Positions 4,277 through 63,352 of a stretch of 64,000 bases of DNA are shown here, one piece after another (the first letter of the stretch is position 1; every line of letters begins with the position of its first letter). Source of the DNA: Collinsella aerofaciens (lineage in GTDB: Bacteria > Actinomycetota > Coriobacteriia > Coriobacteriales > Coriobacteriaceae); NCBI RefSeq assembly GCF_005845035.1, contig NZ_SPFO01000003.1, positions 62,001 through 126,000 of the forward strand. Reading direction: 5' to 3'. Position numbers and translations under genes: made by a program. A model generated the notes under the pieces. It did not search any database. It had not been told where the DNA came from and worked only from the letters and a program-made list of their open reading frames with translations.

Positions 4277-4387
4277 ATACGGCATTCCGTTCTAGATTGA
4301 TTTCGGCACGAATCAGTATAGCGGTCGAGCCCGCCCCAGGCGCATCGAAGATTGGCGCATCGGGGACAGGTTGCTTTGTATCAATGG

Positions 4388-5548
4388 CTAGCGCAGGAGC
4401 TCGGACTGCCAAGCCTCGAGCTGTTCTGCCAAACTCTTGCCGGCAGCGGGCACGTCGATCTGGGGTCGTTTGGGCAACAGTGCGCATTTAAGGATTGCCA
4501 CGATGGTCTGCGAGACAAAGCGTCGTGTATCCTTGTCAAAGCCTTGCGCAGCCTGGAGCATCACGGGCAGGCTCTCGCGCAGATTCCCAGCGATATCCGC
4601 AAACCGCTCAGCACCCGTAGCCTCAAACACGGAGAACAACGCATCTACAAAACGCTCGCGTTCGCTAGGCGACACTGCAAGCAGCATCTCGCGAATGGAA
4701 CCATCAACGTATCGAGCACCGGCGGACAGGCGCTCACAGTACACGAAGTCGTGACCATCAACCACCCAGCTAAAGGGATTGTGCTGCAGCAGGCTGAACT
4801 CGGTGCTCTCAACGATGGCATAGTCCTCCTGTGTCTCGAGCATCATGCCAAAGATCGACGATCGAGGTAGCGTCTTGTCGATTCGACCGGAAAGATCGGC
4901 AAAGGCGTTGCCGTTCAGAAACTCCTCGACGAAGCCCGGACCATCATGGGAATACGCCCGTTCGATTCGCTCACGGGCGACATCGGAGCACATCGCCGCA
5001 CCGTACACCGCAAGGTTTCCGCCCTTGGAATGACCTCCGCACAAAAGCGGCCCGTCAATCGCATCCGCCGCCTCGTCCACATAACGCGCCGCGGATTCCT
5101 GGGCCGGCACAGGACACCGGAACGCCATGTTAAAATCCTCTTTCCAGCCCACAATCGTGCTGTCGGTCCCCCGGAAGGAAAGATAGCTAAACCCCGCCGG
5201 AAACCGGAACGCCATGGCTGCAAACTGCTCCGTCGCCACCACATCGCTCACGGCACGATAGCCGCAAACGTGCACGCCGCGGTATCTGGGATTTGCTGCC
5301 ACGGCCTCCAACAAGGCCCTGCTCCCCTCTGGATCCCACAAGTCGTCAATCATGTCCCGATAGCACTCGGCACGCAGCAGCTCGCGTACGTCTAGGCCCT
5401 GCCAGTTCGTCAGCTCCGCCATATCACCCGGCAAACGCAAATAGGACAACCACGCAAAGACCAGGCTGTCCACCGCGCAGAACGGCCGCTCCTCAAACGG
5501 ATCAAACGCCGTCTGAGCATAGGTCAAAAAATTAGGCGAATCCGACAT
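4388..5548 (-). CDS. DUF2974 (Mbeg1-like) alpha/beta-hydrolase
   Basis: A 386-residue lipase-like hydrolase of the DUF2974 type. It has the SFRGTD oxyanion block (about 124-129) and the nucleophile elbow GGHSKGGN with Ser174. The N-terminal region (FCAVDSLVFAWLSYL) is typical of the family. No signal peptide is seen, so it is probably cytoplasmic. Substrate is unknown. It stands alone, with a GGGACAGG-type repeat just beyond its 3' end and another such motif upstream of its start. Confidence 0.75.
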   Translation of the reverse strand: MSDSPNFLTYAQTAFDPFEERPFCAVDSLVFAWLSYLRLPGDMAELTNWQGLDVRELLRAECYRDMIDDLWDPEGSRALLEAVAANPRYRGVHVCGYRAVSDVVATEQFAAMAFRFPAGFSYLSFRGTDSTIVGWKEDFNMAFRCPVPAQESAARYVDEAADAIDGPLLCGGHSKGGNLAVYGAAMCSDVARERIERAYSHDGPGFVEEFLNGNAFADLSGRIDKTLPRSSIFGMMLETQEDYAIVESTEFSLLQHNPFSWVVDGHDFVYCERLSAGARYVDGSIREMLLAVSPSERERFVDALFSVFEATGAERFADIAGNLRESLPVMLQAAQGFDKDTRRFVSQTIVAILKCALLPKRPQIDVPAAGKSLAEQLEAWQSELLR

Positions 5549-5607
5549 GGCCCTCCCATCAACTATGGTGCATTGGGATGGTGCATTGGGGTCAGGTTAC
5601 TTTGCAC

Positions 5608-5645
5608 CAAAAAGGCGCCCGGACCGTGTGGGCCCGGACGCCTTC
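5608..5645 (-). terminator. terminator of ldh
   Basis: On the minus strand a 13-bp GC-rich stem is followed by five Ts, about 30 bases past the ldh stop. Confidence 0.8.
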
Positions 5646-5675
5646 ATTGTAGCTTTTCGCTCTAGCGAGCTTGAT

Positions 5676-6626
5676 TTAGCAGGAGAAATCGACGCTGTCG
5701 ATGATGTCCTTGAGGGCCTTGGCGGAGACGGTGAGCTCATGCTGCTCGTCGTCGTTCAGCGGCACGGGGACGCGGCAGACAACGCCGTCGCGGCCAACGA
5801 CGGTCGGCATGGAGATGGCAAGATCGGACAGGCCATACTCGCCCACCATGAGCGAAGAGACGGGCAGAACGGTCTGCTCATCGCGCATGACGGCGGTGCA
5901 GATGCGCTTGACGGCCATGGCGACGCCATAGTAGGTGGCGTGCTTCTTCTCGATGATGGTGTAGGCGGAGTTCTTGACGTCCTCGGCGATGCGCTTCTCG
6001 GCAGCCTCATGCTCCAAGTGGCCGTGAAGCTCACAGAAAGTGTTCAGCGGAACGCCGGCAACCTGAGCGCTGGACCAAGCGACAAACTCGGAGTCGCCGT
6101 GCTCGCCCATGACATAGGCCTGGACATCGCGCGGGTCAACCTCGACGTGGGCACCAAGCATCTGCTGCAGGCGGCCGGTGTCGAGCACGGTACCGGAACC
6201 GATGACGTGGCCCTCGGGCAGGCCGGACATCTTGATGGCGGCGTAGGTCAGAACATCGACCGGGTTGGAGACGATTAACAGAATGCCGTCGAAGCCGGAC
6301 TTCTTAATCTCGGGAATAATGGACTTGAAGATGCTGACGTTCTTGTTGACCAGGTCCAGGCGGGTCTCACCGGGCTTCTGGGCAGCGCCAGCAGTGACGA
6401 CGATCATGGCGGCGTCGGCGACATCGGAATAATCGCCGGCGTAGATCTTCATCGGCTCGGCAAACGTCATGCCGTGCGCGATATCCAGGGCCTCACCCTC
6501 GGCACGGTTCTTGTCCACGTCGATGAGGACCATCTCGGAGAACAGACCACTCTGCATCAGTGCGAACGCCGAAGACGAACCGACGAAACCGCAGCCGACA
6601 ATAGCGACCTTCTTCTCGTTAACCAT
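5676..6626 (-). CDS. ldh: L-lactate dehydrogenase
   Basis: Reduces pyruvate to L-lactate with NADH, a fermentative NAD-regenerating step. From the ATG at 6626 (ribosome site GGGAG, 7 bases upstream) the protein is 316 residues. Features are the Rossmann loop VGCGFVGSS (10-18), the substrate loop AQKPGETR with Gln83 and Arg89 (Gln here favours lactate over malate dehydrogenase), Asp149, Arg152, and catalytic His176 in GEHGDSE. It is monocistronic, with a hairpin in its leader. Confidence 0.95.
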   Translation of the reverse strand: MVNEKKVAIVGCGFVGSSSAFALMQSGLFSEMVLIDVDKNRAEGEALDIAHGMTFAEPMKIYAGDYSDVADAAMIVVTAGAAQKPGETRLDLVNKNVSIFKSIIPEIKKSGFDGILLIVSNPVDVLTYAAIKMSGLPEGHVIGSGTVLDTGRLQQMLGAHVEVDPRDVQAYVMGEHGDSEFVAWSSAQVAGVPLNTFCELHGHLEHEAAEKRIAEDVKNSAYTIIEKKHATYYGVAMAVKRICTAVMRDEQTVLPVSSLMVGEYGLSDLAISMPTVVGRDGVVCRVPVPLNDDEQHELTVSAKALKDIIDSVDFSC

Positions 6627-6652
6627 TAGAAACTCCCATCTCTCTCCACAAA

Positions 6653-6683
6653 CAAGCCGCCCGGGAACGACCCGAGCGGCTTG
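6653..6683 (-). promoter_or_regulatory. hairpin in the ldh leader
   Basis: CAAGCCGC (6653-6660) pairs with GCGGCTTG (6676-6683), with further GC pairing inside, 26 bases upstream of the ldh ATG. On the minus strand it is followed by a weak T-rich stretch. It could end transcripts from the aminotransferase gene or attenuate ldh; the sequence does not decide. Confidence 0.5.
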
Positions 6684-6827
6684 CCGTAATCCCAATACAT
6701 CCAATCGGGACTTTGATTATGCCCCTATTCGCAGCCAAAAATCGACCGTTTACCGAAATTGTTTGCAGTATTCGTAAAATAACTGCACGAAATCGATTTC
6801 GAGCTATTGACGAGTCGAAATAACTTT

Positions 6828-7991
6828 CTAATACAGGCCCGCCTCGCGAATGGCCTCGACAGCCAAAGCGATCTGATCGGGCGGCAGGACCAGCGCCATG
6901 CGCACGTGTCCCTCGCCCGAAGGACCAAAGCTCGCGCCCGGCGTCACCACAACGCCGGCCTTCTCCATGAGCTCCTCGCAAAACGCCATGGAATCGGTGC
7001 GACCACCGGGAAGCTTGGCCCACACAAACATAGAGCCATGTGCGTTGGGACGCTCCCAGCCCAGGCCCTCAAGACCGTCGCACAGGGCATCGCGGCGCTC
7101 CTGGTACTTCAGACGCTGCGCCTCGACCTCATCGCGCGGGCCATTAAGGCACGCGATGGCGGCCTTCTGGATCGGGAAGAACATACCAAAGTCGATCTGG
7201 CTGCGCAGCTTGGCAAAGGCAGAGACCACGTCCTCGCGGCCGACCAAAAAGCCGATACGCGCACCGGTGACGTTAAACGACTTGGAGAGCGAGAAGAACT
7301 CAACGCCCACCTCGAGCGCGCCGGGATACTGCAAGAAGCTGCCGCCCGGCTCGCCGTCGAACACGATGTCGGAGTATGCGTTGTCATGGACGATGAGCAG
7401 GTCGTGCTCGCGGGCGAAAGCGATGATCTCCTCGTAGACCTCGGGCGTGCCCACCGAGCCGACCGGGTTCGCGGGCAGCGACACGATCATATACTTGGCA
7501 CGATCGGCCACCTCGGGATCGATACCCGCCACATAGGGCAGGTAATTGTGCTCGGCAACCAGCGGATAGTATTCGAGCTTGGCATCGGCGATCTTGGCAC
7601 CCGCCTCAAAGACCGGGTAGCACGGATCGGGAACCAGAATGGTGTCGCCCGGATCGAGCAGGGCCAGGCCCAAATGACCCACGCCCTCCTGCGTGCCGTT
7701 GCACGACTGCACCATGGACGGCGTAATGCCCGAAACGCCAAAGCGGCGCTCATAGTAATCGCACACGGCCTGCTTGAGTTCGGGCAGGTCGCGCAGGGCA
7801 TACTTCCACATCTCGGGATCTTGAGCTGCCTGCGTGAGCGCCTCGACCACGTGGTTGTACGGCTTAAAGTCGGGCGTGCCCACGCTCATGTTATAAATGG
7901 TCTTGCCCTGGGCCTTCAGCGCGAGCAGTTTGTTGTTGAGCGAGGCGAAAACCTCCGCGCCAAAGCGGTCGAGACGCTGCGATGCCTGCAT
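6828..7991 (-). CDS. class I/II aminotransferase (PatA/DapL-like)
   Basis: PLP-dependent fold-type I aminotransferase. From the ATG at 7991 (ribosome site AAAGGTGG) it is 387 residues. Visible are NPVG with Asn175, Asp203, Tyr206, the PLP-binding Lys237 in SLSKSFNVTGAR, and Arg245. A longer in-frame reading upstream lacks a ribosome site and crosses a terminator, so it was rejected. Its sequence style suits enzymes annotated as LL-DAP or N-acetyl-LL-DAP aminotransferases. Because dapH is in the window and needs such a partner, this gene is a candidate for that step, but substrate is not provable here. Confidence 0.85.
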   Translation of the reverse strand: MQASQRLDRFGAEVFASLNNKLLALKAQGKTIYNMSVGTPDFKPYNHVVEALTQAAQDPEMWKYALRDLPELKQAVCDYYERRFGVSGITPSMVQSCNGTQEGVGHLGLALLDPGDTILVPDPCYPVFEAGAKIADAKLEYYPLVAEHNYLPYVAGIDPEVADRAKYMIVSLPANPVGSVGTPEVYEEIIAFAREHDLLIVHDNAYSDIVFDGEPGGSFLQYPGALEVGVEFFSLSKSFNVTGARIGFLVGREDVVSAFAKLRSQIDFGMFFPIQKAAIACLNGPRDEVEAQRLKYQERRDALCDGLEGLGWERPNAHGSMFVWAKLPGGRTDSMAFCEELMEKAGVVVTPGASFGPSGEGHVRMALVLPPDQIALAVEAIREAGLY

Positions 7992-8009
7992 GGTGCCACC
8001 TTTCGATAT

Positions 8010-8042
8010 AAAAAACGCGGCGCTCCGACAAGAGCGCCGCGC
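8010..8042 (-). terminator. terminator after nadE, upstream of the aminotransferase
   Basis: A 9-bp stem (8016-8024 with 8033-8041) followed by TTTTTT on the minus strand. It ends 19 bases before the aminotransferase ATG, so it also lies in that gene's leader. Confidence 0.8.
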
Positions 8043-8109
8043 GATACGGGCCATCAGATTGCAAAAGTGTAACGCTTGCAACCCCCGTATTGGTTCAATT
8101 TAGCCAACC

Positions 8110-10089
8110 TTAGTCAATTGCATTGAGCGCGTCGATCTGTGCGAGCCACAGACGTGAGCTGGCGTCACTCGGCAGACGCCAATCGCCACGCGGGCTGAGC
8201 GTCACCGAGCCCACCTTGGGGCCATCGGGCAGGCAGCTGCGCTTAAACTGCTGGGCAAAGAAGCGACGGTAGAACGTACGCAACCACGTGTGGACGGTCT
8301 TGGCGTCGTAGACACCCTCGAAACTCTTGAGCGCCATGCGGTAGATCTTGCCCGGCTCAAAGCCAAAACGCAGCAGGTAGTAGAGGAAGTAGTCGTGCAA
8401 CTCGTACGGGCCCACCAAATCCTCGGTCTTCTGCGCAATCTCGCCGTCGCCCGTGGGCGGCAGAAGCTCGGGGGACACCGGCGTATCGAGGATATCGAGC
8501 AAAACCTCGGCAATACGCCCGCCAAAGACATCAGCCGCATAACGCACCAGATGGCGCACAAGCGTCTTGGGCACGCTCGCGTTGACGGCGTACATGCTCA
8601 TGTGGTCGCCGTTATAGGTAGCCCAGCCGAGCGCCAGCTCACTGAGGTCGCCCGTGCCGATGACAAAGCCGCCGGCTTGGTTGGCCAAATCCATGAGAAT
8701 CTGCGTGCGCTCGCGCGCCTGGCTGTTCTCGTAGGTCACGTCCTGCACGGTCGGATCATGCTCGATATCCTTAAAGTGCTGCTCCACGGCAGCATGGATT
8801 GAGACCTCGCGGAAACTCACACCCAAGTCACGAGCGAGCGACTCGGCATTCGACTTGGTGCGGTGCGTCGTGCCAAAGCCGGGCATGGAGACCGCCGTGA
8901 TACCCGTACGCGGCAGCCCCAGCGCATCGAAGGCACGCACGGTCACAAGCAGTGCCAGCGTGGAGTCCAAGCCGCCCGAAAGGCCGATGACGGCCGCCTT
9001 GGTGCCCGTATGGGCAAGGCGGGTCTTGAGGCCGGCGGTCTGCAGGTCGAGGATCGTCTCGCAGCGCTCGGCCAAGTCGCCGTGGTCGGCCGGCACAAAG
9101 GGCGCGCGCGGGAAAACGCGGTCGATATCGCAGGCATCGCGCAGGACAGGTTCTTCGGCCAGTACGCCCTCAAACGAAAACTCAACGGTCGTGGCCTCCG
9201 GCGCATCGTCGGTGCGCGCCCACGTCGTCGAGCGACGGCGCTCGGCAACCAGGCGGTCAAGGTCAACGTCGGCGATGGCCATATCGCAGGTAAGCAGTTT
9301 GGTCGCGGCGAGCTTGGAGCCGTTTTCGTAGACGAGGTTCTCGCCCGCAAAGACCATGTCGGTCGTGGACTCGCCCTCGCTCGCGTCCGCGTAGGCATAG
9401 GCGCAGTACAGGCGCGCGCTCTGGTTGGAAATGAGGCTGCGGCGGTAATCCGCCTTACCGATAATCTCGTCCGAAGCCGACGGATTGAGGATCACCGTCG
9501 CACCGGCAAGCGCCATCTCGGTCGAAGGGGGCGCTGGCACCCACAGGTCCTCGCAGACCTCAACGCCCAGCACCATATCCTCGGCATCTTCATCACAGCA
9601 GCGGTAGACAAGCCCCGAACCCAGCGGAACCGGACCCTGACCGGCAAACTCGACCCACACAGGATCTGCGGGCGCCGGAGCAAACCAGCGGCACTCGTAG
9701 AACTCGCCATAGTTGGGCAGATACTTCTTGGCCGTGAGGCCCAAAAGCTCGCCCGCGCAGCACACGGCGGCGCAGTTGTAGATATTCTCGGCAACTGCAA
9801 CGGGAAGACCGATGGTAAAGACAATCGGCAGCTCACGAGTCTCGTCGAGGATATGCACCAGAGCAGCCTCGCAGGCATGCAGCAGCGTGCGATTATGGAA
9901 CAGGTCGGCCGCGGTATAGCCGCACAAGTTAAGCTCGGGCAGCACCAGCGCGCGAACGCCGCGCTCGGCAGCCTCGCGAACAGCCGCCAGCGCAACCTCG
10001 GCATTGCCCTCGACATCGGCCACGCGAATCCGTGGCGACGCCGCCGCCACACGCAAAAAGCCATCAGACTGAGAAAGGTGAAGATTCAT
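8110..10089 (-). CDS. nadE: glutamine-dependent NAD+ synthetase
   Basis: Amidates nicotinic acid adenine dinucleotide using ammonia from glutamine. The start at 10089 follows GGGAG; nine extra codons upstream lack a ribosome site. The N-terminal nitrilase-type glutaminase domain shows the Glu-Lys-Cys triad in LPELNLCGY, KKYLPNYGEF and GVEVCEDLW. The C-terminal synthetase domain has the ATP-pyrophosphatase loop GLSGGLDSTLAL. About 659 residues, normal for the two-domain form. Monocistronic with its own terminator. Confidence 0.95.
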   Translation of the reverse strand: MNLHLSQSDGFLRVAAASPRIRVADVEGNAEVALAAVREAAERGVRALVLPELNLCGYTAADLFHNRTLLHACEAALVHILDETRELPIVFTIGLPVAVAENIYNCAAVCCAGELLGLTAKKYLPNYGEFYECRWFAPAPADPVWVEFAGQGPVPLGSGLVYRCCDEDAEDMVLGVEVCEDLWVPAPPSTEMALAGATVILNPSASDEIIGKADYRRSLISNQSARLYCAYAYADASEGESTTDMVFAGENLVYENGSKLAATKLLTCDMAIADVDLDRLVAERRRSTTWARTDDAPEATTVEFSFEGVLAEEPVLRDACDIDRVFPRAPFVPADHGDLAERCETILDLQTAGLKTRLAHTGTKAAVIGLSGGLDSTLALLVTVRAFDALGLPRTGITAVSMPGFGTTHRTKSNAESLARDLGVSFREVSIHAAVEQHFKDIEHDPTVQDVTYENSQARERTQILMDLANQAGGFVIGTGDLSELALGWATYNGDHMSMYAVNASVPKTLVRHLVRYAADVFGGRIAEVLLDILDTPVSPELLPPTGDGEIAQKTEDLVGPYELHDYFLYYLLRFGFEPGKIYRMALKSFEGVYDAKTVHTWLRTFYRRFFAQQFKRSCLPDGPKVGSVTLSPRGDWRLPSDASSRLWLAQIDALNAID

Positions 10090-10292
10090 AAGAATGCTCC
10101 CGTGCGTAGACGCCATTCACAACAATTAGCAAGCCCTATTGTAGTTCAACCGCCGGGTGTAACCGCATCCCACCAACTTGGTGAGCTATTGATGAGTTGA
10201 TGATATCTGTTAAATGTCACGTACGATTCACATCTGGTGGGTACCCTGATGGCTGCATGAAACGAAGCAGATTTACACCGGGAGGACCCCGT

Positions 10293-11246
10293 ATGACAAC
10301 CAAGTACACCGACGCGCCGCGCACGCGCGTCATGACACCGGCATCGCTCAACAACGGCGTTCACGAAAACCATTCCATCGGACAGACCATGGCCATCGCG
10401 CCCAAAAAGGGCCTGTTCGATGACATTTCCATTCCTCAGATCATTGCCGGCGCCGCAGCCGCCGCCACGAGCGTCGCGCTTGCCTCCAAGATCGGTATCG
10501 CCGGATCGGTGATCGGCGCCGCCGTGAGCTCGGTCATCACCGTTGTGTCCTCGCAGGTCTACCGCCACTTTATCTCTGCCAGCGCCAAAGCCCTCAAAGG
10601 TACGCACGCCGACGTCGACTACCCCGCCGGCGCCTATGAGCCCGTTGAGCTTAATGCCGAGGAGCACCTGGGTGGCGCCGCGACTACGCAGGAGATGCGC
10701 CAGGTTGCTGGGCGCGCGACCACGGCGCGCGTTGCCCCCAACAGCTTGCGTGCCAAGGCGGCGGCAGAGCGCAGCCAGACGCAAAAGAAGGTAATCATCT
10801 TCTCGATCGCCATCGCCATCGTCGCGGTCATCGCCTGTACCGGCGCCATCCTTATAACCACCGCCGGTGAGGGTCTGGGCGAGCGCCCCGAGCCAATCCT
10901 TTCGTCGCGCACGACCGAGAGCGATGTAAATGGCGACACCCAGTCGCAAGATCAGCAGGCACAGGCGGACGGCACGCAAGACAGTTCTACCTCTACCGAT
11001 TCGTCCTCGAACACCCAAAACCAATCGCAGGGCACCGATTCCTCTACGGCCAACAGTGGCACGCCGTCCGGCACGACCGACTCAAGCCAAACGACTGACG
11101 GTTCACAGCCGAACACGGGAGGCCAGACGAGCGACACCACGTCGGGAACGGGCTCAGCAGACAGTAGCAACACCAACAGCCCGAGCGGAACCGCTTCCGG
11201 CACGGCATCTGACAACTCGAGCCAAGGCACGGCATCAGGCAACTAA
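10293..11246 (+). CDS. membrane protein with Ser/Thr/Gly-rich tail
   Basis: Not recognised. The start at 10293 follows GGGAGG. The 317-residue product has a glycine/alanine-rich hydrophobic stretch (about 47-90), a soluble segment, a clear transmembrane helix (about 166-190), then about 110 residues rich in Ser, Thr, Gly, Asn, Gln and Asp with almost no hydrophobic residues. The tail is probably disordered and, if outside the cell, suits a cell-wall spacer. No LPXTG anchor is seen. The longer in-frame reading from 10197 lacks a ribosome site. Confidence 0.7.
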   Translation: MTTKYTDAPRTRVMTPASLNNGVHENHSIGQTMAIAPKKGLFDDISIPQIIAGAAAAATSVALASKIGIAGSVIGAAVSSVITVVSSQVYRHFISASAKALKGTHADVDYPAGAYEPVELNAEEHLGGAATTQEMRQVAGRATTARVAPNSLRAKAAAERSQTQKKVIIFSIAIAIVAVIACTGAILITTAGEGLGERPEPILSSRTTESDVNGDTQSQDQQAQADGTQDSSTSTDSSSNTQNQSQGTDSSTANSGTPSGTTDSSQTTDGSQPNTGGQTSDTTSGTGSADSSNTNSPSGTASGTASDNSSQGTASGN

Positions 11247-55186: not shown

Positions 55187-55480
55187 TTCAGCAGGTCAAA
55201 GCAATTAGTCATTTTGCAGACGCATTAATTATGAGGGGTTCTTGGCAAGTCGGCAAAACGTTACCAACACGGCTACCTGCATGGCAGTTATAAACCCCCT
55301 TAGTCAAGCCGCTGACAAATCCTACCAAAACCAAGCCGCTCACGCCAAAAGAATCCAAAAGATTATGCTTGACCAACATGTTGCGGTCGAATGCCGGCGG
55401 ACGGAGCGACAGGACTGTAAACGCTCGGAAGACTACAGCCCCGGCGCCCCGTCCGCCGGCATTCGATAGGCGAGGAGCTA
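55187..55480. other. gene-free region ending in a large palindrome
   Basis: From 55187 to 55386 I see no gene. Then 55387-55404 and 55449-55466 are perfect 18-base inverted repeats with a 44-base, internally pairing loop. The palindrome ends 14 bases past the stop of the minus-strand membrane-protein gene, so it probably ends the acyl-metabolism locus transcript. Confidence 0.6.
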
Positions 55481-55948
55481 TTACTTCTCTTCGCGAGCTA
55501 TCATGCGGCCGAGAGCCGCTGTAAAGGGATCGAGCAGCACGCCGGCGATAACCACAAAAGCCCACCCCTTTGTGACAAGGCCTGCCCAACGCGCGAAGAA
55601 CGTACGGCCTTCAATCGTTCCGAATCCTCCCCGGAAGGCAATCTCGCCAAAAACGATCACCATAAAAAGGAGCGTGGCACCGATGACCGTACCGGCGATC
55701 TTGTGCGATGTACTCCCCTGCTCAAAACCAAAAAAGTTCAGGCACATACCGACCGTTTTGCCAAACATCGGAAGTGCGCTCAGAACCTCGGCGATTACCG
55801 TGGCCACGATGAGTTGTCCCCAAAAGCCCGTGGGGCTCGTCAGATCCAAGCCAGGCGCCCCTTCGATGATGGGGAGAAACGCGCAGAGCAATAGCGGGTT
55901 AAAGAAGCCGTTGAGAATACCGATAACGCGCCTGACAGGTAACTTCAT
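55481..55948 (-). CDS. small multi-pass membrane protein
   Basis: Not recognised. About 155 residues with four hydrophobic segments (RVIGILNGFFNPLLLCAFLP, LIVATVIAEVLSALPMFG, GTVIGATLLFMVIVFGEI, TKGWAFVVIAGVLLDPF). Start at 55948, with GAAAGG 10 bases upstream. Last gene of the locus, after an MFS gene and a hairpin. Possibly an accessory to transport. Confidence 0.65.
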   Translation of the reverse strand: MKLPVRRVIGILNGFFNPLLLCAFLPIIEGAPGLDLTSPTGFWGQLIVATVIAEVLSALPMFGKTVGMCLNFFGFEQGSTSHKIAGTVIGATLLFMVIVFGEIAFRGGFGTIEGRTFFARWAGLVTKGWAFVVIAGVLLDPFTAALGRMIAREEK

Positions 55949-55982
55949 AGCCGTAAGCCTTTCAAAGTCATTGATAGAAAGA

Positions 55983-56009
55983 GGGCCGCCGGCATATGTC
56001 GGCGGCCCC
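55983..56009 (-). terminator. hairpin between MFS and membrane-protein genes
   Basis: GGGGCCGCCGAC pairs with its complement around CATATG; CTCTTTC follows on the minus strand. Confidence 0.7.
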
Positions 56010-56048
56010 GATAAAACATGATGTACGGCAAAGCAACTACTAGAACGG

Positions 56049-57248
56049 CTACTCTGCCTCGCCGCCGGCCGCCATCTTCTCGGCCTCGGCAAGCTGGGCC
56101 GGGGTGAGCTTGCGATACTTAATGGCGCCAAAGACGACACACGCCGCACAGACGATCATGCCGGCGATGAACTTCTGGTCAATCGTTGCACCAAACGGCG
56201 ACGTTACGGCCTCAAACACAATGGGAGACAGCGCCATGCCAAAGTTGATGCCCGCCATGCCAATGGCGAGGTTAAACGCACGTCCCTCGGGGGCAGAGTT
56301 GCCGGCGGCAAAATTGCCCTCCAGCGGCACGTAGGTCTCCTTGCCCAGCGCGACGACAAAGCCCGCAACGCACAGCACCATAAAGGCGGGCGCAATCAGC
56401 GTCAGGCCCAGGCCAATGAGCGTCACGCCCCACGCGATCGGCATGGCCAGGTTCTTAAACTTGGCAAACAGCGGACCGACCAAAAGACCAGCCGCAATAC
56501 CAGCAACGGTCATAACAGTAGAGGCAAGACCGGCCTCCACGGTACCGCCAAAGCCGCGACCCACAACAAGCAGCGAGACGTTAGAGCTGAAGAGCTGGAA
56601 CGTGAGTACGAACACAAAGCTCATGAGCGTGATAATCGCGACCTCTTTAGGCATATTGGCGAACACGTTGACCTTGCGCTTGGGCTCAAAATGACCCTCG
56701 GGAAGGCAAACAGCCTCAATGACAATAAACACGATCATGATGAAGTACGCCGCATAGCTGTGGAACCACTCGGCAGAACCCAAGATGCCGGAAACCATCG
56801 TCCAGATAATGCCGCCAAGTGCAACAAAAGTGGAGTAGATGCCCATGACAAACGAGCGCTGCTTTCCGCCAAAGTAATCCGCGATAAGAGCGTCCGTTGA
56901 ATTCTGCACGGCGCCGAGACCAAGGCCCATGACAGCAGAAGCCGCTAAGACCTGGCCGAGCGAGTCGTGGAACACCAGCACCGAGGCGCCTGCCAGCATC
57001 ACGATAACGTGACCGACAAGCGTCGTCTTCTTCTTGGACACGCGAGAGGCAAGCTGTGAAGAGACGAGCATGGCGGACAGTGCCATCATCAACGGGATGA
57101 TGCCGATGATCATCTGGACGGCAGCGATGTTTTCGTTGGGAAATGCCGCCGCAACAGAGGCCACGATGGGGACGGGCACCAACATGCCCATAATGCACAT
57201 GGCGGCAGCATAAATGCCCACCAGGTACTTGATCTTGGTTTTATCCAT
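56049..57248 (-). CDS. MFS transporter
   Basis: 399 residues with about 12 membrane helices and the SRVSKKKTTLVGHVIVML loop between helices 2 and 3, typical of the major facilitator superfamily. Acidic C-terminal tail. Start at 57248 with AAGGA. Located downstream of the buk operon behind a terminator-like hairpin, so it may import the substrate or export the acid product. Confidence 0.85.
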   Translation of the reverse strand: MDKTKIKYLVGIYAAAMCIMGMLVPVPIVASVAAAFPNENIAAVQMIIGIIPLMMALSAMLVSSQLASRVSKKKTTLVGHVIVMLAGASVLVFHDSLGQVLAASAVMGLGLGAVQNSTDALIADYFGGKQRSFVMGIYSTFVALGGIIWTMVSGILGSAEWFHSYAAYFIMIVFIVIEAVCLPEGHFEPKRKVNVFANMPKEVAIITLMSFVFVLTFQLFSSNVSLLVVGRGFGGTVEAGLASTVMTVAGIAAGLLVGPLFAKFKNLAMPIAWGVTLIGLGLTLIAPAFMVLCVAGFVVALGKETYVPLEGNFAAGNSAPEGRAFNLAIGMAGINFGMALSPIVFEAVTSPFGATIDQKFIAGMIVCAACVVFGAIKYRKLTPAQLAEAEKMAAGGEAE

Positions 57249-57269
57249 GATCCATCCTTACACTTAGAA

Positions 57270-57312
57270 AAAGGGTCGGGGCGGCCGGACGTCATCATCG
57301 GCCGCCCCAAAC
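57270..57312 (-). terminator. terminator after the buk gene
   Basis: GGGGCGGCCG (57278-57287) pairs with CGGCCGCCCC (57299-57308), followed on the minus strand by CCCTTTTTC. Confidence 0.82.
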
Positions 57313-57321
57313 ACAGCACTA

Positions 57322-58434
57322 TCAGTCGTTGAATCCGGTGAACACGGGCTCTCCGCTGTACACGAGCGCTTCCTCGACACCATCGAGCACGCGGCAGGCG
57401 CCAGACGCCATTGCCTCGAGTTCAAACTCGCCGGGATAAGCCGATACGGGGGCGATCCAAGAGCAGCACTCCTCAATTGAGGCAACGAGCTCCTTGCTGT
57501 GGACCATGCCGCCTCCGAGCAAGATGCCGTCGACGTCGCCCTTCAGCACGCAAGCCATCTCGCCAATCCACTTGCAGATTTGGTAGACCATTGCATCCCA
57601 GGCGCGAGCCGCAGCCTTATCGCCCGCAGCGGCGCGATCGCACACCTCGATGGCATCGGACGTACCCAAAAGGTCAACGAAGCCACCGGTCTTCATGCAA
57701 TGGGCGCGGGCAACGTCGAGACCATGCTCTGCCGTATACTTCGCAATCTCGATCGCGGGAACCGATCCGCAGCGCGTCGGCGCCATGGGACCCTCGCCGC
57801 CAACGATGTCGTTGCCGTCCACCATCTTGCCCTTAAGATGAGCCGAGATAGAGATGCCGCCGCCGATATGGCAAACGATGAAGTTGCACTCATCATAGGG
57901 GCGACCGAGCTTTGCCGCATGGCGGATGGCGGTCTCTTTAAGATTAAGGGCGTGCAGGTGCACGTTTCGATACACGCCCTTAATGCCCGTCATACGTGCG
58001 AGGTCGCACAGCTCGTCGGTATCGGGAGGATTCACCACAAAAGAGGGCTTTCCCGTCTTTGAGGCAAACTCATGGGCAATCTGGGGTCCCAGCTGCGCCG
58101 GGTGTTGAATGCCATTTGCGCCAACGCGAGCATGCTCGAGCATGACCTCATTGATGGCATACGTGCCGCCGGGCAGCGAAAGCAAGCCGCCGCCACGACC
58201 GACAAATGCATCAAAGTCCTCGAGCTTCAGGCCCGCCTCCTCCAGTGCTCCAAGAATCAGATCGCAGCGATACGGCATCTGAGCCGAAACCCCGTCGAAC
58301 TGGGCAAGGTCCTTCGCATCGTGCGCAACGTTCTTACTGAGCTTGCACTCATCGCCCTCAAAAACGCCCACCTTCGTGGAAGTGGAACCCGGGTTGATTA
58401 CCAGGATGCGCCGGGGAGTCTTTTTATCGGACAT
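57322..58434 (-). CDS. buk: butyrate kinase family acyl kinase
   Basis: ASKHA-fold kinase making ATP from an acyl phosphate. RILVINPGSTSTKVGVF phosphate loop, VGRGGGLLSLPGGTYAIN, VCHIGGGISISAHLKG and LLGGGMVHS. Length 370 and the VGRGGG block fit butyrate kinase rather than acetate kinase. Starts 3 bases after the phosphotransacylase gene. Chain length of the substrate cannot be read from sequence. Confidence 0.9.
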   Translation of the reverse strand: MSDKKTPRRILVINPGSTSTKVGVFEGDECKLSKNVAHDAKDLAQFDGVSAQMPYRCDLILGALEEAGLKLEDFDAFVGRGGGLLSLPGGTYAINEVMLEHARVGANGIQHPAQLGPQIAHEFASKTGKPSFVVNPPDTDELCDLARMTGIKGVYRNVHLHALNLKETAIRHAAKLGRPYDECNFIVCHIGGGISISAHLKGKMVDGNDIVGGEGPMAPTRCGSVPAIEIAKYTAEHGLDVARAHCMKTGGFVDLLGTSDAIEVCDRAAAGDKAAARAWDAMVYQICKWIGEMACVLKGDVDGILLGGGMVHSKELVASIEECCSWIAPVSAYPGEFELEAMASGACRVLDGVEEALVYSGEPVFTGFND

Positions 58435-58437
58435 ACC

Positions 58438-59445
58438 TTAAGCCTCCTTAAGCGCCTGAGCGCGCACGCAGCTCATCACCACGTTGCCGACGATCTCATC
58501 GACGGGCGCAGAGCGCGAGCAATCGCACACGATCTTCTTGAAGCCCTGAAGCATGGGACCGTAAGCATTGGCGCCGGTCAGATTCTGGATGATCTTGACG
58601 CCGATATTGCCCACGTTGATATCGGGCCAGATGACCACGTTGGCTTGGCCCGCAACAGCAGACTCACGATGCACCTTCTTGGCCGCGACCTTGGGGTTAA
58701 TCGCCGAATCAAACTGGAACTCACCGTCGATGGCAAGGTCGGGACGGCGATCGTTGGCAATCTCGCGAGCACGACGTACCTTATCGACGAGTTCGTTATC
58801 CATCGAACCGTCAGTCGAATGCGAAAGCAGCGCGCAACGGATATCCCATCCGGTCAGCGAGCGCACCGTTTCACTCGACGAAATCGCGATCGAGGCAAGC
58901 TCCTCGCTCGTGGGGTCAACGCAAACGGCAGAATCGCCAAAAGCCAAAAGGCCACCTTCGCCGCCGTTCCAGTTGGGAATGTCGGCGATACCGCACGAGC
59001 TCACAGTGTCCACCCCGTCAGCAAGACCGACGATGGTCTGACCCGCCAGGATGATATCGCCCGTAGCGTTATCGATACCGGCGAACATAACGTCGACATC
59101 GCCGAGCACCTGCAAAATCAGGGCGCGCTCAAGCGGACGCGTCATACGGCGCGCAGCGCCCTTGGGCTTAAACTTGCAATCCGGATGCGAAAGGTAGCGC
59201 TCGCAACAAGCGGCGTTCGCCCCCTCGTCGGTCACATCGACAATCTCGATGCCGTCAAGGGAGATGCCGCGCTCATCGGCAAGCTCCTTGAGCTTAGCGC
59301 CGTCTCCGACCAGCACACATTCGGCAAGATGCTCGGCGGCGATCTTTGCGACCGCCTGCATCATGGTCTCGTTTTCGCCCTCGGGAAAAGCAACGCGCAT
59401 AGGCTTGGCGGCAGCCTGCTCGCGCAGGGTCTGCATCAGGTCCAT
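58438..59445 (-). CDS. phosphate acyltransferase (Pta/Ptb family)
   Basis: Swaps an acyl thioester for acyl phosphate. MRVAFPEGENETMMQAVAKI opening, ALILQVLGDVDVMFAGIDNATGDI, and the C-terminal VVIWPDINVGNIGVKIIQNLTGANAYGP block. 335 residues, the short form. Between acp and buk with 5- and 3-base gaps, so a strict operon. PlsX of the same superfamily uses acyl-ACP, which makes acyl-carrier use here plausible. Confidence 0.88.
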   Translation of the reverse strand: MDLMQTLREQAAAKPMRVAFPEGENETMMQAVAKIAAEHLAECVLVGDGAKLKELADERGISLDGIEIVDVTDEGANAACCERYLSHPDCKFKPKGAARRMTRPLERALILQVLGDVDVMFAGIDNATGDIILAGQTIVGLADGVDTVSSCGIADIPNWNGGEGGLLAFGDSAVCVDPTSEELASIAISSSETVRSLTGWDIRCALLSHSTDGSMDNELVDKVRRAREIANDRRPDLAIDGEFQFDSAINPKVAAKKVHRESAVAGQANVVIWPDINVGNIGVKIIQNLTGANAYGPMLQGFKKIVCDCSRSAPVDEIVGNVVMSCVRAQALKEA

Positions 59446-59450
59446 GGCAG

Positions 59451-59684
59451 TTACTCCATCTCTTCGGCAGTGCGCTCGATAAGCTCGCCGATGGTCTTCA
59501 TGACCATGACCTCGCGAACGGGAACCTCGGCATCGAGCTCGTTCTCGATCATGGAGGTCAGAGCGATCATCTTCATCGAGCCCTTGCCCAGGGTCTCAAA
59601 CGTCGTCTCGGGGGTCACATCGCCGTCATAGTTGTAAGCGGACTTGGCGAAATCGCAGATCTGCTGAGTGAGTTCTTCGTTCAT
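59451..59684 (-). CDS. acyl carrier protein
   Basis: 77 residues, acidic four-helix type. The phosphopantetheine site is Ser36 in LGKGSMKMIAL; the usual DSL is GSM here, so it is not the fatty-acid-synthase AcpP type. Site AAAGG. Directly precedes the phosphate acyltransferase gene. A phosphopantetheinyl transferase gene lies in the same locus. Confidence 0.85.
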   Translation of the reverse strand: MNEELTQQICDFAKSAYNYDGDVTPETTFETLGKGSMKMIALTSMIENELDAEVPVREVMVMKTIGELIERTAEEME

Positions 59685-59702
59685 GATGGTGCCTTTCTGA
59701 TT

Positions 59703-59752
59703 AAAAAGAGGGACGGCCGCGGCGGGCAGGAGACAGGTATCCCGCCGTGGCC
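59703..59752 (-). terminator. intra-operon hairpin between DUF35 and acp genes
   Basis: GGCCGCGGCGGG (59715-59726) pairs with CCCGCCGTGGCC (59741-59752); a five-T run follows on the minus strand. Suggests attenuated readthrough into acp-pta-buk. Confidence 0.65.
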
Positions 59753-59788
59753 TAAGAGAGGAATCGAATTGTTAAAAGGGGTGAAAGC

Positions 59789-60211
59789 CTAGTCGTCAAG
59801 CTCGAACGTGAGCTCTTTGTAGCCCGGTCGGTCGATGACCTTGGCATGGATGCCAACGGTCTCGCCCGCCATGAGCTTGGCGCGGATCTCGGGGGCCTTC
59901 TTCTTGGTAATGCCGTAGATGACGTAGGTATACTGAGAACCTTCGTCGATATCGACAGCGCCGTAGGCGTACTTGCCAAACTCCTTGAGGTAGGGCTTGT
60001 CATTCTGCGGACCAGGCAGGGTAAAATCGATCAGGTGGCCGTGACCGGAAACCTGGACCCAGTCGGTCTTGTGGTAGCCGCAGGCATTGCAGGCAAGGTG
60101 GGGCGGAAACTCAACGGCTCCGCACTCGGGGCACTGGCGTGCCCAATAGATGCCCTCTTCAAGACCCGTGTAGAACTTCTTGACCACGGGCTCCATATCT
60201 TTGAGTTGCAT
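59789..60211 (-). CDS. DUF35 zinc-ribbon/OB-fold protein
   Basis: 140 residues. N-terminal rubredoxin-like zinc ribbon CPECGAVEFPPHLACNAC, then an OB-fold with TYVIYGITKKKAPEIRAKL and VGIHAKVI. Such proteins bind thiolase-like enzymes as scaffolds that hold acyl-CoA (as in archaeal HMG-CoA synthesis and phloroglucinol acetylation). It follows the thiolase-like gene by 38 bases. Site AAGGAG. Confidence 0.88.
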   Translation of the reverse strand: MQLKDMEPVVKKFYTGLEEGIYWARQCPECGAVEFPPHLACNACGYHKTDWVQVSGHGHLIDFTLPGPQNDKPYLKEFGKYAYGAVDIDEGSQYTYVIYGITKKKAPEIRAKLMAGETVGIHAKVIDRPGYKELTFELDD

Positions 60212-60249
60212 GAGAATACTCCTTATGGGAAATCGAAAACCGCGGTCGC

Positions 60250-61515
60250 TTAGGCGACGGTACGAAGGATCTGGCAGCGCACGTTCTGAGAACCGCCAAA
60301 ACCGCGCAGGAACGCCGTCTCGGGAACCTTCTTCATCTGGGTGGCACCGGCGACGCCGCGCATTTGCTTAACGGCCTCGACGATATCGGCGATGCCCGAT
60401 GCGCCATGTGCGTGACCAAAGTTGCAGCGGCCACCGTGCGGGTTGATGGGCTTATCGCCGTCAAAAGCGGTGCGGCCATCGATCGCGTACTTCCAAGCCT
60501 CGCCGCGCGGAATATAGCCGCACTCCTCAGCCGAGACGATCTCGGAAGCCAGGAAGAAGTCATTGCACATGAACAGGTCGATCTCGTCGGGGCTCACGCC
60601 GGTAAGGTCGTAGACCTGCTTGGCGGCAAGCTCGGTAGCCCAATGCTCGTTGTGAAGCAGGCCGGCTTCGACGGCAGAGGCCCCCGTGCCCAGAACCTCG
60701 ATAGGTGCATACGGGACACCCATGGCCTTGGCCTTCTCCGTGGGCATCACGACAACAGCTGCGGCACCGTCGCATTTCTTCTCAAAGCCGGTAACGCGCA
60801 GGTACTGCGTGACGCGCGGGTTGTACATGCTCTTGAGATACTCGTCGGCGGTATCGAAACCGGCTGCCTTCGCATCCTCCTCGACCGTGGTCTCGTACCA
60901 GGCAAGGGGATTCAGGACGGCACCGCGGCGAAGGCTCTTGGTAAGGCCGTTCAGGGCGTCATCAATCTGTTCGGCAGTAAGGTCGTACTGCATCGAATAC
61001 TCGTTGATCCAGTTGTCGAACGACACGCCAAACGCGCCGTCGAGTGGACGACCATAAGCGCGGTCATAGATCTTATCGAGCGAGGGAATCATAACGTCGA
61101 GCGTAAAGTCCTGACGAATATGGGAGGGCATATGCTCAACGGGAAGCGTCGAAGCCAAATCGCAGGCACCCGTAAGGACAACATCGTAGGCACCGGAGGC
61201 GACTGCCATCACGGCCTGCTCAAGGGCGACGTAGCCCGTGCAGCAAGCCTCGGAATGATGGACGGAGCCCTTGGCACGAACGCCAAACCAATCGGCAACC
61301 TGCATGTTGGGGGTAATGCAATCGCCAACGAGATACGGATTGGCGCTGCCGTGATAGAAAAAGTCGATATCGCGGGGCTCAAGACCGGCATCGGCAATTG
61401 CCTCGAGGGCCGCATAGCCAAACGCCTCGCCCTCGCCAATACCCTGGGTCTCGGGATGCTCCTCAAAATCCTTGAACGGGGTGCAGCCCACGCCTACAAT
61501 CGAGACGCTGCGCAT
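60250..61515 (-). CDS. thiolase-like (SCP-x/PhlC-type) acyltransferase
   Basis: Thiolase-fold enzyme, 421 residues from the ATG at 61515; a GTG at 61536 is an alternative start. Nucleophile Cys91/Cys92 in HHSEACCTGYVALEQ; the C-terminal active site INPHGGRCNFGHAHGASG has the catalytic His. It belongs to the non-classical branch that pairs with DUF35 partners. It probably makes or breaks a C-C bond on a CoA- or carrier-bound acyl group. First structural gene of the operon. Confidence 0.87.
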   Translation of the reverse strand: MRSVSIVGVGCTPFKDFEEHPETQGIGEGEAFGYAALEAIADAGLEPRDIDFFYHGSANPYLVGDCITPNMQVADWFGVRAKGSVHHSEACCTGYVALEQAVMAVASGAYDVVLTGACDLASTLPVEHMPSHIRQDFTLDVMIPSLDKIYDRAYGRPLDGAFGVSFDNWINEYSMQYDLTAEQIDDALNGLTKSLRRGAVLNPLAWYETTVEEDAKAAGFDTADEYLKSMYNPRVTQYLRVTGFEKKCDGAAAVVVMPTEKAKAMGVPYAPIEVLGTGASAVEAGLLHNEHWATELAAKQVYDLTGVSPDEIDLFMCNDFFLASEIVSAEECGYIPRGEAWKYAIDGRTAFDGDKPINPHGGRCNFGHAHGASGIADIVEAVKQMRGVAGATQMKKVPETAFLRGFGGSQNVRCQILRTVA

Positions 61516-61588
61516 GTTCTTTCCGAGCGTAACCACTGAATATCACATCCTAATCATGTGAAGGTGTACGGAGTGATGGCGCAGTCCG

Positions 61589-61620
61589 GCCGCGAGCGAA
61601 GGTGAGAGAGCGCTCGCGGC
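61589..61620. promoter_or_regulatory. hairpin in the thiolase-operon leader
   Basis: Perfect 10-bp arms GCCGCGAGCG and CGCTCGCGGC. A TTTT run follows on the plus strand only, although both neighbouring genes read on the minus strand. Confidence 0.5.
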
Positions 61621-61641
61621 TTTTCTGTGCCGTCACACGTT

Positions 61642-61659
61642 GAACTACTGCAGTGGTTC
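61642..61659. promoter_or_regulatory. candidate TetR operator 1
   Basis: GAACTACTGCAGTGGTTC, an 18-bp palindrome with 8 of 9 pairs matched, about 125 bases upstream of the thiolase-like start. Confidence 0.5.
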
Positions 61660-61675
61660 TTTTGAACGTAGCTTT

Positions 61676-61694
61676 AGTTTATGAGGGGTTAAAC
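61676..61694. promoter_or_regulatory. candidate TetR operator 2
   Basis: AGTTTATGAGGGGTTAAAC, an imperfect palindrome 17 bases beyond operator 1. Confidence 0.35.
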
Positions 61695-61708
61695 GAGACA
61701 CGTGAGAC

Positions 61709-61751
61709 AAAAAGCCCCGATGTGTCCCATCATATGGGGCACATCGGGGCT
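61709..61751 (-). terminator. terminator of the tetR gene
   Basis: 16-base arms (61713-61728 with 61736-61751) followed by a five-T run on the minus strand. Confidence 0.88.
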
Positions 61752-61857
61752 AGGCGTTCCAAATAGCAGATAAATGGCCATACTTAAATCGATTCATAGG
61801 GCCGGATTGCTCTGAATCCGCAAACCTTGCAACCGTTCATCCCTAAAAATCAGCCGT

Positions 61858-62475
61858 TCACCCGAGCGGCTTTTCAAAATCGGGGATGCGTGGGTGCCAG
61901 TGGCGCGATGCATCGTCGACAAAGAGCGGTGCGTAGAACATGCGATTGAGGGCGGCGGCAACGGTGCGCGCCTCAAGGTCGGGCCGGGCCTCGAGCCAAT
62001 ACTGAATGAGGTTATGGTGGCCCGCAAGCGCAAATGCTAGATACAGATCGAGGTCCGTTTCATCGGAAAAAGTCGAGCGAAGCCGATTGCGAAAATAGTC
62101 ATGCATAAAGATCGTTGCCTTGTGAGCAAACACGGGATCGCCGTTATCGCTGTTAAGTGCCAAAACTTTCGAGCGATTAGCCTTGAGGATCTCCATGCGC
62201 TTGATCATCGTGGGCGTAGGGTCCAGCTGCGCATCGCCAAAACGAGCCTCCAACGCAACATCATTGATGTCCTGCATATTCTGGAGCAGCTCATCTTCAA
62301 AACGTTTAACCACATCATCGACAGAGCGATAACAGCGATAGAACGTCGATTTGGATGTATGGGCAAGGCGAAGTACCTCGGCCACCTTAATCGACTGCAC
62401 CGGAGTTGTCGCCATAAGTTCAAAGACGGCATCCTCGATCCGTGAAGCAATATCGTTTTGAGCGTTCAGTGACAT
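61858..62475 (-). CDS. TetR-family regulator
   Basis: 205 residues. N-terminal helix-turn-helix SIKVAEVLRLAHTSKSTFYRCYRSVDDV, then a helical ligand domain with FALAGHHNLIQYWLEARPDL. Start at 62475 with GGGGAGG. Lies 28 bases after the phosphopantetheinyl transferase gene and directly upstream of the thiolase operon, so is its likely regulator. Confidence 0.87.
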   Translation of the reverse strand: MSLNAQNDIASRIEDAVFELMATTPVQSIKVAEVLRLAHTSKSTFYRCYRSVDDVVKRFEDELLQNMQDINDVALEARFGDAQLDPTPTMIKRMEILKANRSKVLALNSDNGDPVFAHKATIFMHDYFRNRLRSTFSDETDLDLYLAFALAGHHNLIQYWLEARPDLEARTVAAALNRMFYAPLFVDDASRHWHPRIPDFEKPLG

Positions 62476-62503
62476 GGCGGCCTCCCCTATTGGCGATTGG
62501 CTC

Positions 62504-63133
62504 CTATGCTACCCGAAAGGCATGCTCCTTGACGACGATACGAGGTATAGAGCGTGCCGCACAAGAGATGACGCAGCGACCGTATGTCATCGACGAAGTA
62601 TTCCATCCGCCGGGCATGCCATCTTTGCGAGGGTCAATCGAAAACCCGACGCCTTCAGCCTTGAGGATGGCCTCGATGCGCGTCCACGTCTGACTCATGC
62701 GAAGATTGCGTTCTTGCAAATTGGGGGCAGCGTTAATCCACGCGCGCTCGTCGTCGTTTGCCATACGCCCAACCGCAACGGGAGCAATCTCATCGATCGC
62801 CTCGATATCCACGCCAATAGGTCCTCCGACCGACCGAGCAACATCGGAAACAGCGAGGACGGCCACGCTTCCGCCATGTGAAATGGAAATAGAAGGTGCC
62901 TCCCCATCCGCAAGCTCGATCTTGCCGAAAGCAGAACGCGCAAGCTGGGTGTCGTCGAAGACACCCAGGGCGTCGCGAAGCAGCAGACCCACGCCTGCAG
63001 CTTCCCTCCGAGACGCAATTGGGAGATCACCGTTGGAAGCACGTAAGGCATAGCGTCCCGCGATTAATGCCATATCAACGGTCTCGCCGGGATCGATCGC
63101 AGAAACGTCAACGAGATGCACGGTTATGTTCAA
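62504..63133 (-). CDS. Sfp-type 4'-phosphopantetheinyl transferase
   Basis: Adds phosphopantetheine from CoA to carrier proteins. SISISHGGSVAVLAVS, magnesium motif IGVDIEAID (Asp109, Glu111), and WTRIEAILKAEGVGF with Glu154. The usual Lys of WxxKEA is Ile. I chose the TTG at 63133, with GGGGG nine bases upstream; the start is uncertain because no ATG is well placed. About 209 residues. Likely activates the ACP of this locus. Confidence 0.8.
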   Translation of the reverse strand: MNITVHLVDVSAIDPGETVDMALIAGRYALRASNGDLPIASRREAAGVGLLLRDALGVFDDTQLARSAFGKIELADGEAPSISISHGGSVAVLAVSDVARSVGGPIGVDIEAIDEIAPVAVGRMANDDERAWINAAPNLQERNLRMSQTWTRIEAILKAEGVGFSIDPRKDGMPGGWNTSSMTYGRCVISCAARSIPRIVVKEHAFRVA

Positions 63134-63242
63134 AATGGTCAACCCCCACTCGATTGAGATGACAAGGCTAAACAGACGCTTAGAACCGCTCTTTCCTGAA
63201 TCGAGATACCTTTTGCCGGCGATTTGGCGACGTAAAACAAAA

Positions 63243-63277: not shown

Positions 63278-63352
63278 TGGTGGGCGTTAGAAGATTTGAA
63301 CTTCTGACCTCTTCCGTGTCAGGGAAGCGCTCTCCCCCTGAGCTAAACGCCC
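63278..63352 (-). tRNA. tRNA-Val (GAC)
   Basis: Cloverleaf on the minus strand with 7-bp acceptor GGGCGTT, anticodon loop CTGACAC (anticodon GAC), T-loop TTCAAAT, and encoded CCA (63278-63280). Confidence 0.93.

Follow-up and report, generated by a model that had tools for sequence, protein, structure and literature searches.

A putative acyl carrier protein-tethered variant of the phosphate acyltransferase–acyl kinase route in Collinsella aerofaciens

Why would a dedicated acyl carrier protein (ACP) be encoded directly beside a phosphate acyltransferase and a butyrate kinase? Substrate-level ATP from acyl groups is taught as a process based on coenzyme A (CoA). The question is raised by a locus within a 64,000-nucleotide stretch of the Collinsella aerofaciens genome (RefSeq assembly GCF_005845035.1, contig NZ_SPFO01000003.1, positions 62,001 to 126,000), which we call the window in its full length. 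Here, genes for a thiolase-like enzyme (thl), its DUF35-type partner (duf35), an ACP (acp), a Pta-family phosphate acyltransferase (pta) and a butyrate kinase family enzyme (buk) follow one another. With a probability of about 0.58, we read the block containing them as an ACP-tethered variant of the Pta-acyl kinase route that works by the mechanism described below, in which formation of the acyl phosphate is likely tethered to ACP.

The window proteins were scored against Pfam and NCBIfam models with curated cut-offs. The thiolase-like enzyme (60250–61536, minus strand) carries the C-terminal domain PF22691 (101.2 bits, cut-off 28), and the DUF35-type protein (59789–60211, minus), composed of a rubredoxin-like zinc ribbon and an OB fold, scores slightly below the cut-off of PF12172 (21.7 bits, cut-off 23.2). 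The ACP (59451–59684, minus; PF00550, 33.8 bits, cut-off 20.8) has the site LGKGSMKM, in which the attachment serine lies within GKGSM. It is followed by the Pta-family enzyme (58438–59445, minus), for which we propose the use of acyl-ACP, and by the acyl kinase Buk (57322–58434, minus; TIGR02707, 370.9 bits, above the cut-off of 289.1), which matches the Thermotoga-type Buk2 structures 1saz/1x9j at an E-value of 1e-85. The family models place every gene named in the initial annotation at this one minus-strand locus, apart from a small protein without a match, and the reported spacing of 3-5 bases within acp-pta-buk holds, with 5 nt between acp and pta and 3 nt between pta and buk. The duf35-acp spacing is 104 nt, and thl is separated from duf35 by 38 nt to the first-listed duf35 start or 53 nt to a later one.

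In the proposed route, a 4'-phosphopantetheinyl transferase (PPTase) would convert the ACP to its thiol-bearing form. The thiolase-DUF35 pair would cut the C–C bond beside the keto group of a ketone, and the acyl group would move from the thiolase cysteine to the ACP; a contact between the pair and the ACP is supported by a DUF35-ACP fusion found in a relative and by the operon. As the residue changes suggest, the divergent Pta would exchange ACP for phosphate, producing the acyl phosphate without CoA. The butyrate-kinase-type enzyme, judged by its family, would pass the phosphate to ADP and yield ATP and a free carboxylic acid. A transporter of the major facilitator superfamily (MFS) would provide transport and a TetR-type protein control. 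We regard the ATP-forming direction as quite probable, and loading by C–C cleavage as somewhat favored.

The phosphate acyltransferase and its CoA-contacting residues

PF01515 (PTA_PTB; 282.4 bits, cut-off 24) is the sole family found for the window acyltransferase. The PlsX family model gave no match to it, and PlsX, which had been named as a relative, is at most a distant one. The enzyme is nearer to Pta than to phosphate butyryltransferase (Ptb), with 254.8 bits for NF007233 and 242.5 bits for the pta model, both under the curated cut-offs. Identity as a Ptb was rejected (TIGR02706, 70.7 bits versus a cut-off of 410.5).

We compared 39 non-redundant ACP-linked Ptas with 23 ordinary Ptas of Coriobacteriia, using the residue numbering of the Methanosarcina thermophila enzyme; Arg133 contacts the β-phosphate of CoA and Arg87 the 3'-phosphate (PMC6461089). 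In this comparison, labeled ACYLTRANSFERASE, position 133 is hydrophobic (L/I/M/V/A) in 39/39 ACP-linked Ptas, and Arg87 is missing from 38/39. The pair of CoA-phosphate arginines, 87 and 133, that marks an ordinary CoA-dependent Pta is not present in the ACP-linked set. The catalytic pair Ser309-Arg310 is retained in all complete ACP-linked sequences, most of which have Glu in place of Asp316. Their segment 86-105 bears a net charge of +1 to +7, mostly at least +5, versus -1 to +2 in the ordinary Ptas, all 23 of which keep Arg87, Arg133 and Arg287. The stretch after position 87 is near-neutral in the ordinary enzymes, e.g., LRAKKGVTIEQARAQVMDAT, and strongly basic, MPDCPFKSKGIRRRAKKPM, in the ACP-linked ones. 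In the window Pta, R87, R133 and R287 are replaced, Ser309-Arg310 is retained, and the local charge is +5. Position 133 is occupied by K, R or H in CoA-dependent Ptbs.

The loss of the arginines together with the gain of the basic segment suggests that binding of the CoA phosphates has been lost and a protein dock gained at the position of the CoA end, where the basic segment might receive the ACP. The same changes argue against a strict CoA dependence of the acyltransferase, and ACP-linked Ptas may retain residual CoA use. Judged from these sequences, the Pta probably uses ACP. In the phylogenetic tree, all ACP-linked Ptas except that of one divergent locus (L140) fall into one clade with an SH-aLRT support of 100. 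The clade also includes the Ptas of the second type of set described below and the protein of a pta-buk pair without ACP (L144). For seven Ptas in the clade, most of them at contig ends, an ACP was not found nearby.

Conservation and variation of the gene set

A scan of 84,980 species genomes returned 48 loci that encode a thiolase relative, 49 including the window. Their hosts are Collinsella, Olsenella, Tractidigestivibacter, Parafannyhessea, rumen Atopobiaceae and one metagenome-assembled genome (MAG) of Eggerthellaceae, and, beyond Coriobacteriia, one Anaerolineales (Chloroflexota) MAG and one Lachnospiraceae MAG. Within the class sample, 49/398 genomes have the thiolase. The order thl-duf35-acp-pta-buk is uninterrupted in 27/49 loci, which bears out the conserved gene order that the initial annotation had suggested looking for in Coriobacteriia, and all five genes lie close together in 32/49, mostly in Coriobacteriia and in the Chloroflexota MAG. 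Other loci are cut by contig ends or have extra genes between acp and pta. The acp and thiolase genes are kept beside pta-buk across Coriobacteriia and in the one Chloroflexota MAG, as the initial annotation had required of its reading. The Lachnospiraceae locus has acp-thl-duf35 and no pta-buk within it. Only the seed genomes were recovered from 391 sampled genomes of the class of that MAG and from 251 sampled Chloroflexota.

More distantly related loci retain the set in varying arrangements. Locus L138 has the standard order, and L137 is rearranged with the set complete (pta-buk-thl-duf35-acp). L139 contains pta, thl, a fused gene and buk; the fusion (8079-8852, minus strand) encodes a 257-aa protein that combines a DUF35-type zinc ribbon (PF12172, 26.8 bits, above the cut-off unlike the window DUF35) with a phosphopantetheine (ACP) domain (PF00550, 26.8 bits), and it links the ACP with the thiolase complex. 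L140 (G727:C55:1-12000) has two thl-duf35 pairs, acp and pta, with an acetate kinase gene replacing buk. At L142, 1843-3606 encode a 587-aa thiolase-DUF35 fusion beside a small ACP and a short-chain dehydrogenase/reductase. The aspartate that precedes the serine in the DSL motif is absent in 72/72 cluster ACPs, and the fatty-acid-type ACP of the window's host genome has LDSL. PPTase genes lie near many loci, including L012/L063, L030-L034, the Chloroflexota MAG (L058), L138 and L145. With the conserved order, the fusion and the Pta residue changes, the ACP-linked acyl pathway of the initial annotation is supported in part.

The genes form a single unit that is gained or lost together, a 7.8-kb block (55389–63211) between nrdD and tRNA-Val (63278-63352). 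It is missing from cluster-less Collinsella, as seen by blastn: matches to six closely related cluster-free genomes stop at 55388 and restart at 63212 or 63234, with the flanks ~90 bases apart (about 91 in L170), and the missing segment is exactly the gene set considered here. The locus is more than a chance grouping because its order is kept and six relatives lack the block as a whole. The block borders tRNA-Val/tRNA-Gly, and an integrase was not seen inside it. The thiolase is carried by 5/37 Collinsella genomes searched, the window's own counted, and among 60 relatives an orthologous Pta is confined to the five genomes with the window-type thiolase. The 2.3-Mb host genome also encodes a Pta of the ordinary kind and two acetate kinases, along with a further PPTase and two additional ACP matches. 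Elsewhere in this genome (L136, G000:C32:35180-38764), the ordinary pta adjoins two tandem acetate kinase genes.

A second set has a different partner. In L145 (G026:C1:1134000-1150000; 3577-10803, minus), a CocE/NonD-type hydrolase, ACP, Pta, two small proteins, Buk, an MFS transporter and an AcpS-type PPTase are encoded together, and Arg133 of this Pta is changed to Met. In many rumen Atopobiaceae, ACP-CocE pairs also adjoin the thiolase set. Because of these two arrangements, ACP-Pta-Buk appears to stay the same while the enzyme that loads the acyl group varies. Tentatively, and at somewhat less than even odds, ACP-Pta-Buk might be a general energy-conserving module, to which thiolase-DUF35 (from ketones) or a CocE-type hydrolase (from esters or amides) would pass the acyl group on a dedicated ACP instead of to CoA or water, the energy being carried through the acyl phosphate into ATP.

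Accessory genes complete the block, all on the minus strand. The PPTase (62504–63133; PF01648, 35.2 bits, cut-off 25), proposed to load the ACP, has an uncertain start in the start-codon listing (TTG 63142, TTG 63133 or GTG 63121). The TetR-type regulator (61858–62475) carries the C-terminal domain PF14278 (30.5 bits, cut-off 26.1), and the neighbor-family comparison found its family in 27 loci. In the interval between tetR and the thiolase gene (61537-61857), there are a possible terminator and operator: a hairpin with a T run after it (AGCCCCGATGTG...CACATCGGGGCTTTTT) and another inverted repeat (GCCGCGAGCG...CGCTCGCGGC). The MFS transporter (56049–57248; PF07690 (MFS_1), 94.5 bits, cut-off 33.4), 73 nt from buk, is proposed to move the substrate or product; its family adjoins the cluster in 8 loci and in L137. 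The small, probably membrane protein of 155 aa (55481–55947) had no Pfam or NCBIfam match and belongs to a family seen in 3 loci, in close Collinsella relatives only. It starts more plausibly at ATG 55947 than at a GTG whose open reading frame (ORF) overlaps mfs. Gene calls in the loci were codon-based; those of the AT-rich L133-L135 and L145 were redone by plain ORF length.

Substrate, direction and competing explanations

The catalytic Cys98 and His375 of the thiolase are kept in an alignment with 7yvy, and C98, C99, G374 and H375 are invariant among 9 relatives. Foldseek returned a mixture of thiolases with DUF35 partners, DUF35-aldolase and PhlC, and these matches leave the reaction of the modeled enzyme unfixed. 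A free ketone is a more likely substrate than a β-oxidation intermediate because the block encodes no ligase, hydratase or hydroxyacyl dehydrogenase. An acyl phenol or a 1,3-diketone, e.g., a dihydrochalcone, would be a speculative choice at long odds.

The genes could also be used in reverse: the kinase and Pta would spend ATP on attaching a free acid to the ACP, thiolase-DUF35 would build a C-acylated product, and the MFS transporter would export it, for biosynthesis or detoxification. PPTase, TetR and MFS genes are common in small biosynthetic clusters, the Pta and Buk reactions are reversible, and PhlACB, whose thiolase and DUF35 partner are similar, makes C-acyl phenols in a reversible reaction (PMC6392133). 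We nevertheless consider this use rather unlikely, since assembly enzymes are absent and many relatives pair the set with genes of catabolic appearance, namely a flavin mononucleotide (FMN) reductase, a flavin adenine dinucleotide (FAD) reductase, NuoG/GltD-like and NuoF-like proteins and a PucR-type regulator. In addition, Coriobacteriia are fermenters, which benefit from substrate-level ATP. The best model for the FAD reductase is vinylphenol reductase (317 bits, below the cut-off of 600). A close copy (83-91% identity) occurs in 3/5 thiolase-bearing Collinsella and 0/32 others, far from the thiolase in two of the three; it is not essential because the window's own genome is without one. Two Collinsella carrying both the thiolase block and reductase genes have the FAD reductase, NuoG/GltD-like and FMN-reductase genes apart from the block (L151, 3354-13270; L152, 7311-12120), and L151 additionally has NuoF-like, PucR and Old Yellow Enzyme-like genes.

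An improbable division of roles would let the ACP serve thiolase-DUF35 only, with the Pta taking acyl-CoA after transfer of the acyl group from ACP to CoA. In a studied Pta, loss of Arg87 or Arg133 reduces and does not abolish CoA use (PMC6461089), and the L140 Pta retains two of the three arginines. However, the block encodes no ACP-to-CoA acyltransferase, and the loss of Arg133 and the basic segment follow ACP linkage in every member, whereas the Pta of the ACP-less L144 pair retains Arg133 and has a negative segment. We dismiss as very improbable that the thiolase, Pta and Buk simply serve a standard butyrate- or acetate-type fermentation next to an unrelated ACP. Buk and Pta do fall in well-known families, but the block contains no genes for hydroxybutyryl-CoA dehydrogenase, crotonase or butyryl-CoA dehydrogenase, and an ordinary Pta and acetate kinases are encoded elsewhere in the genome. 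The conserved order and acp position also speak against it, as do the fusion of DUF35 with ACP and the second set, CocE-ACP-Pta-Buk.

Several points weigh against the ACP-tethered route itself. To our knowledge, enzyme activity is known for no member of the ACP-linked set, and the sequence does not tell in which direction the reaction runs. The structure model of the thiolase has moderate confidence (mean pLDDT 66.5). Several rumen Atopobiaceae have pta-buk at a distance of kilobases from acp or off the contig. The L140 Pta has lost Arg133 and retains Arg87 and Arg287, at a locus with an acetate kinase and no Buk. The change of Arg287 alone means little, as Ptbs also occur without it, and it was dropped as a CoA marker since a Ptb also lacks it. 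Mutations of Arg87 and Arg133 in the M. thermophila Pta chiefly alter Km, activity fell by only 58% and 21% in the Arg89 and Arg135 mutants of the Porphyromonas gingivalis Pta, and these arginines lie in the so-called CoA site 2 (PMC6461089). Because the mutants keep activity and the arginines belong to site 2, the loss of the arginines is no proof of lost CoA use.

Relation to known systems

In the open-access literature that we searched, an ACP-linked Pta-kinase route was nowhere described. If the proposed route is true, an ACP-using branch of Pta would be a CoA-free way of saving the energy of a C–C or ester bond in bacteria from the guts of humans, chickens and ruminants, recognizable by a Pta that adjoins an ACP, is without Arg133 and has the basic segment. 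It may also indicate that Collinsella and Olsenella use a ketone from the diet or the host.

Among known systems, PlsX converts acyl-ACP and phosphate to acyl phosphate and ACP in phospholipid synthesis, without coupling to a kinase. It would share the reaction proposed for the window Pta and belongs to a different family. In complex C of glycine reductase, Claisen-type and PlsX-like subunits release acetyl phosphate, from which a kinase makes ATP; the carrier there is a selenoprotein versus the ACP here, and the families differ. Citrate lyase and malonate decarboxylase are catabolic enzymes with their own ACP, which bears a special prosthetic group, and form no acyl phosphate; the block lacks the lyase and decarboxylase subunits of these systems.

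PhlACB, the Friedel-Crafts acylase of Pseudomonas, shares the thiolase with its DUF35 partner and the catalytic Cys and His, and performs reversible C-acyl chemistry without a need for CoA (PMC6392133). Unlike PhlACB, the block adds ACP, Pta and a kinase, with ~20% identity in the structure alignment, and no ORF for a PhlA-like β-ketoacyl-ACP synthase III subunit was found in the block or in the conserved neighbor families. A link to phloroglucinol degradation was set aside, as different enzymes are involved (PMC10470551). Closest in families are Pta-AckA and Ptb-Buk, which likewise combine a PTA_PTB acyltransferase with an acetate/butyrate kinase and carry an acyl phosphate to ATP. Unlike these, the proposed route always adjoins an ACP, has a Pta with a hydrophobic residue in place of Arg133 and a basic segment, and is coupled to thiolase-DUF35.

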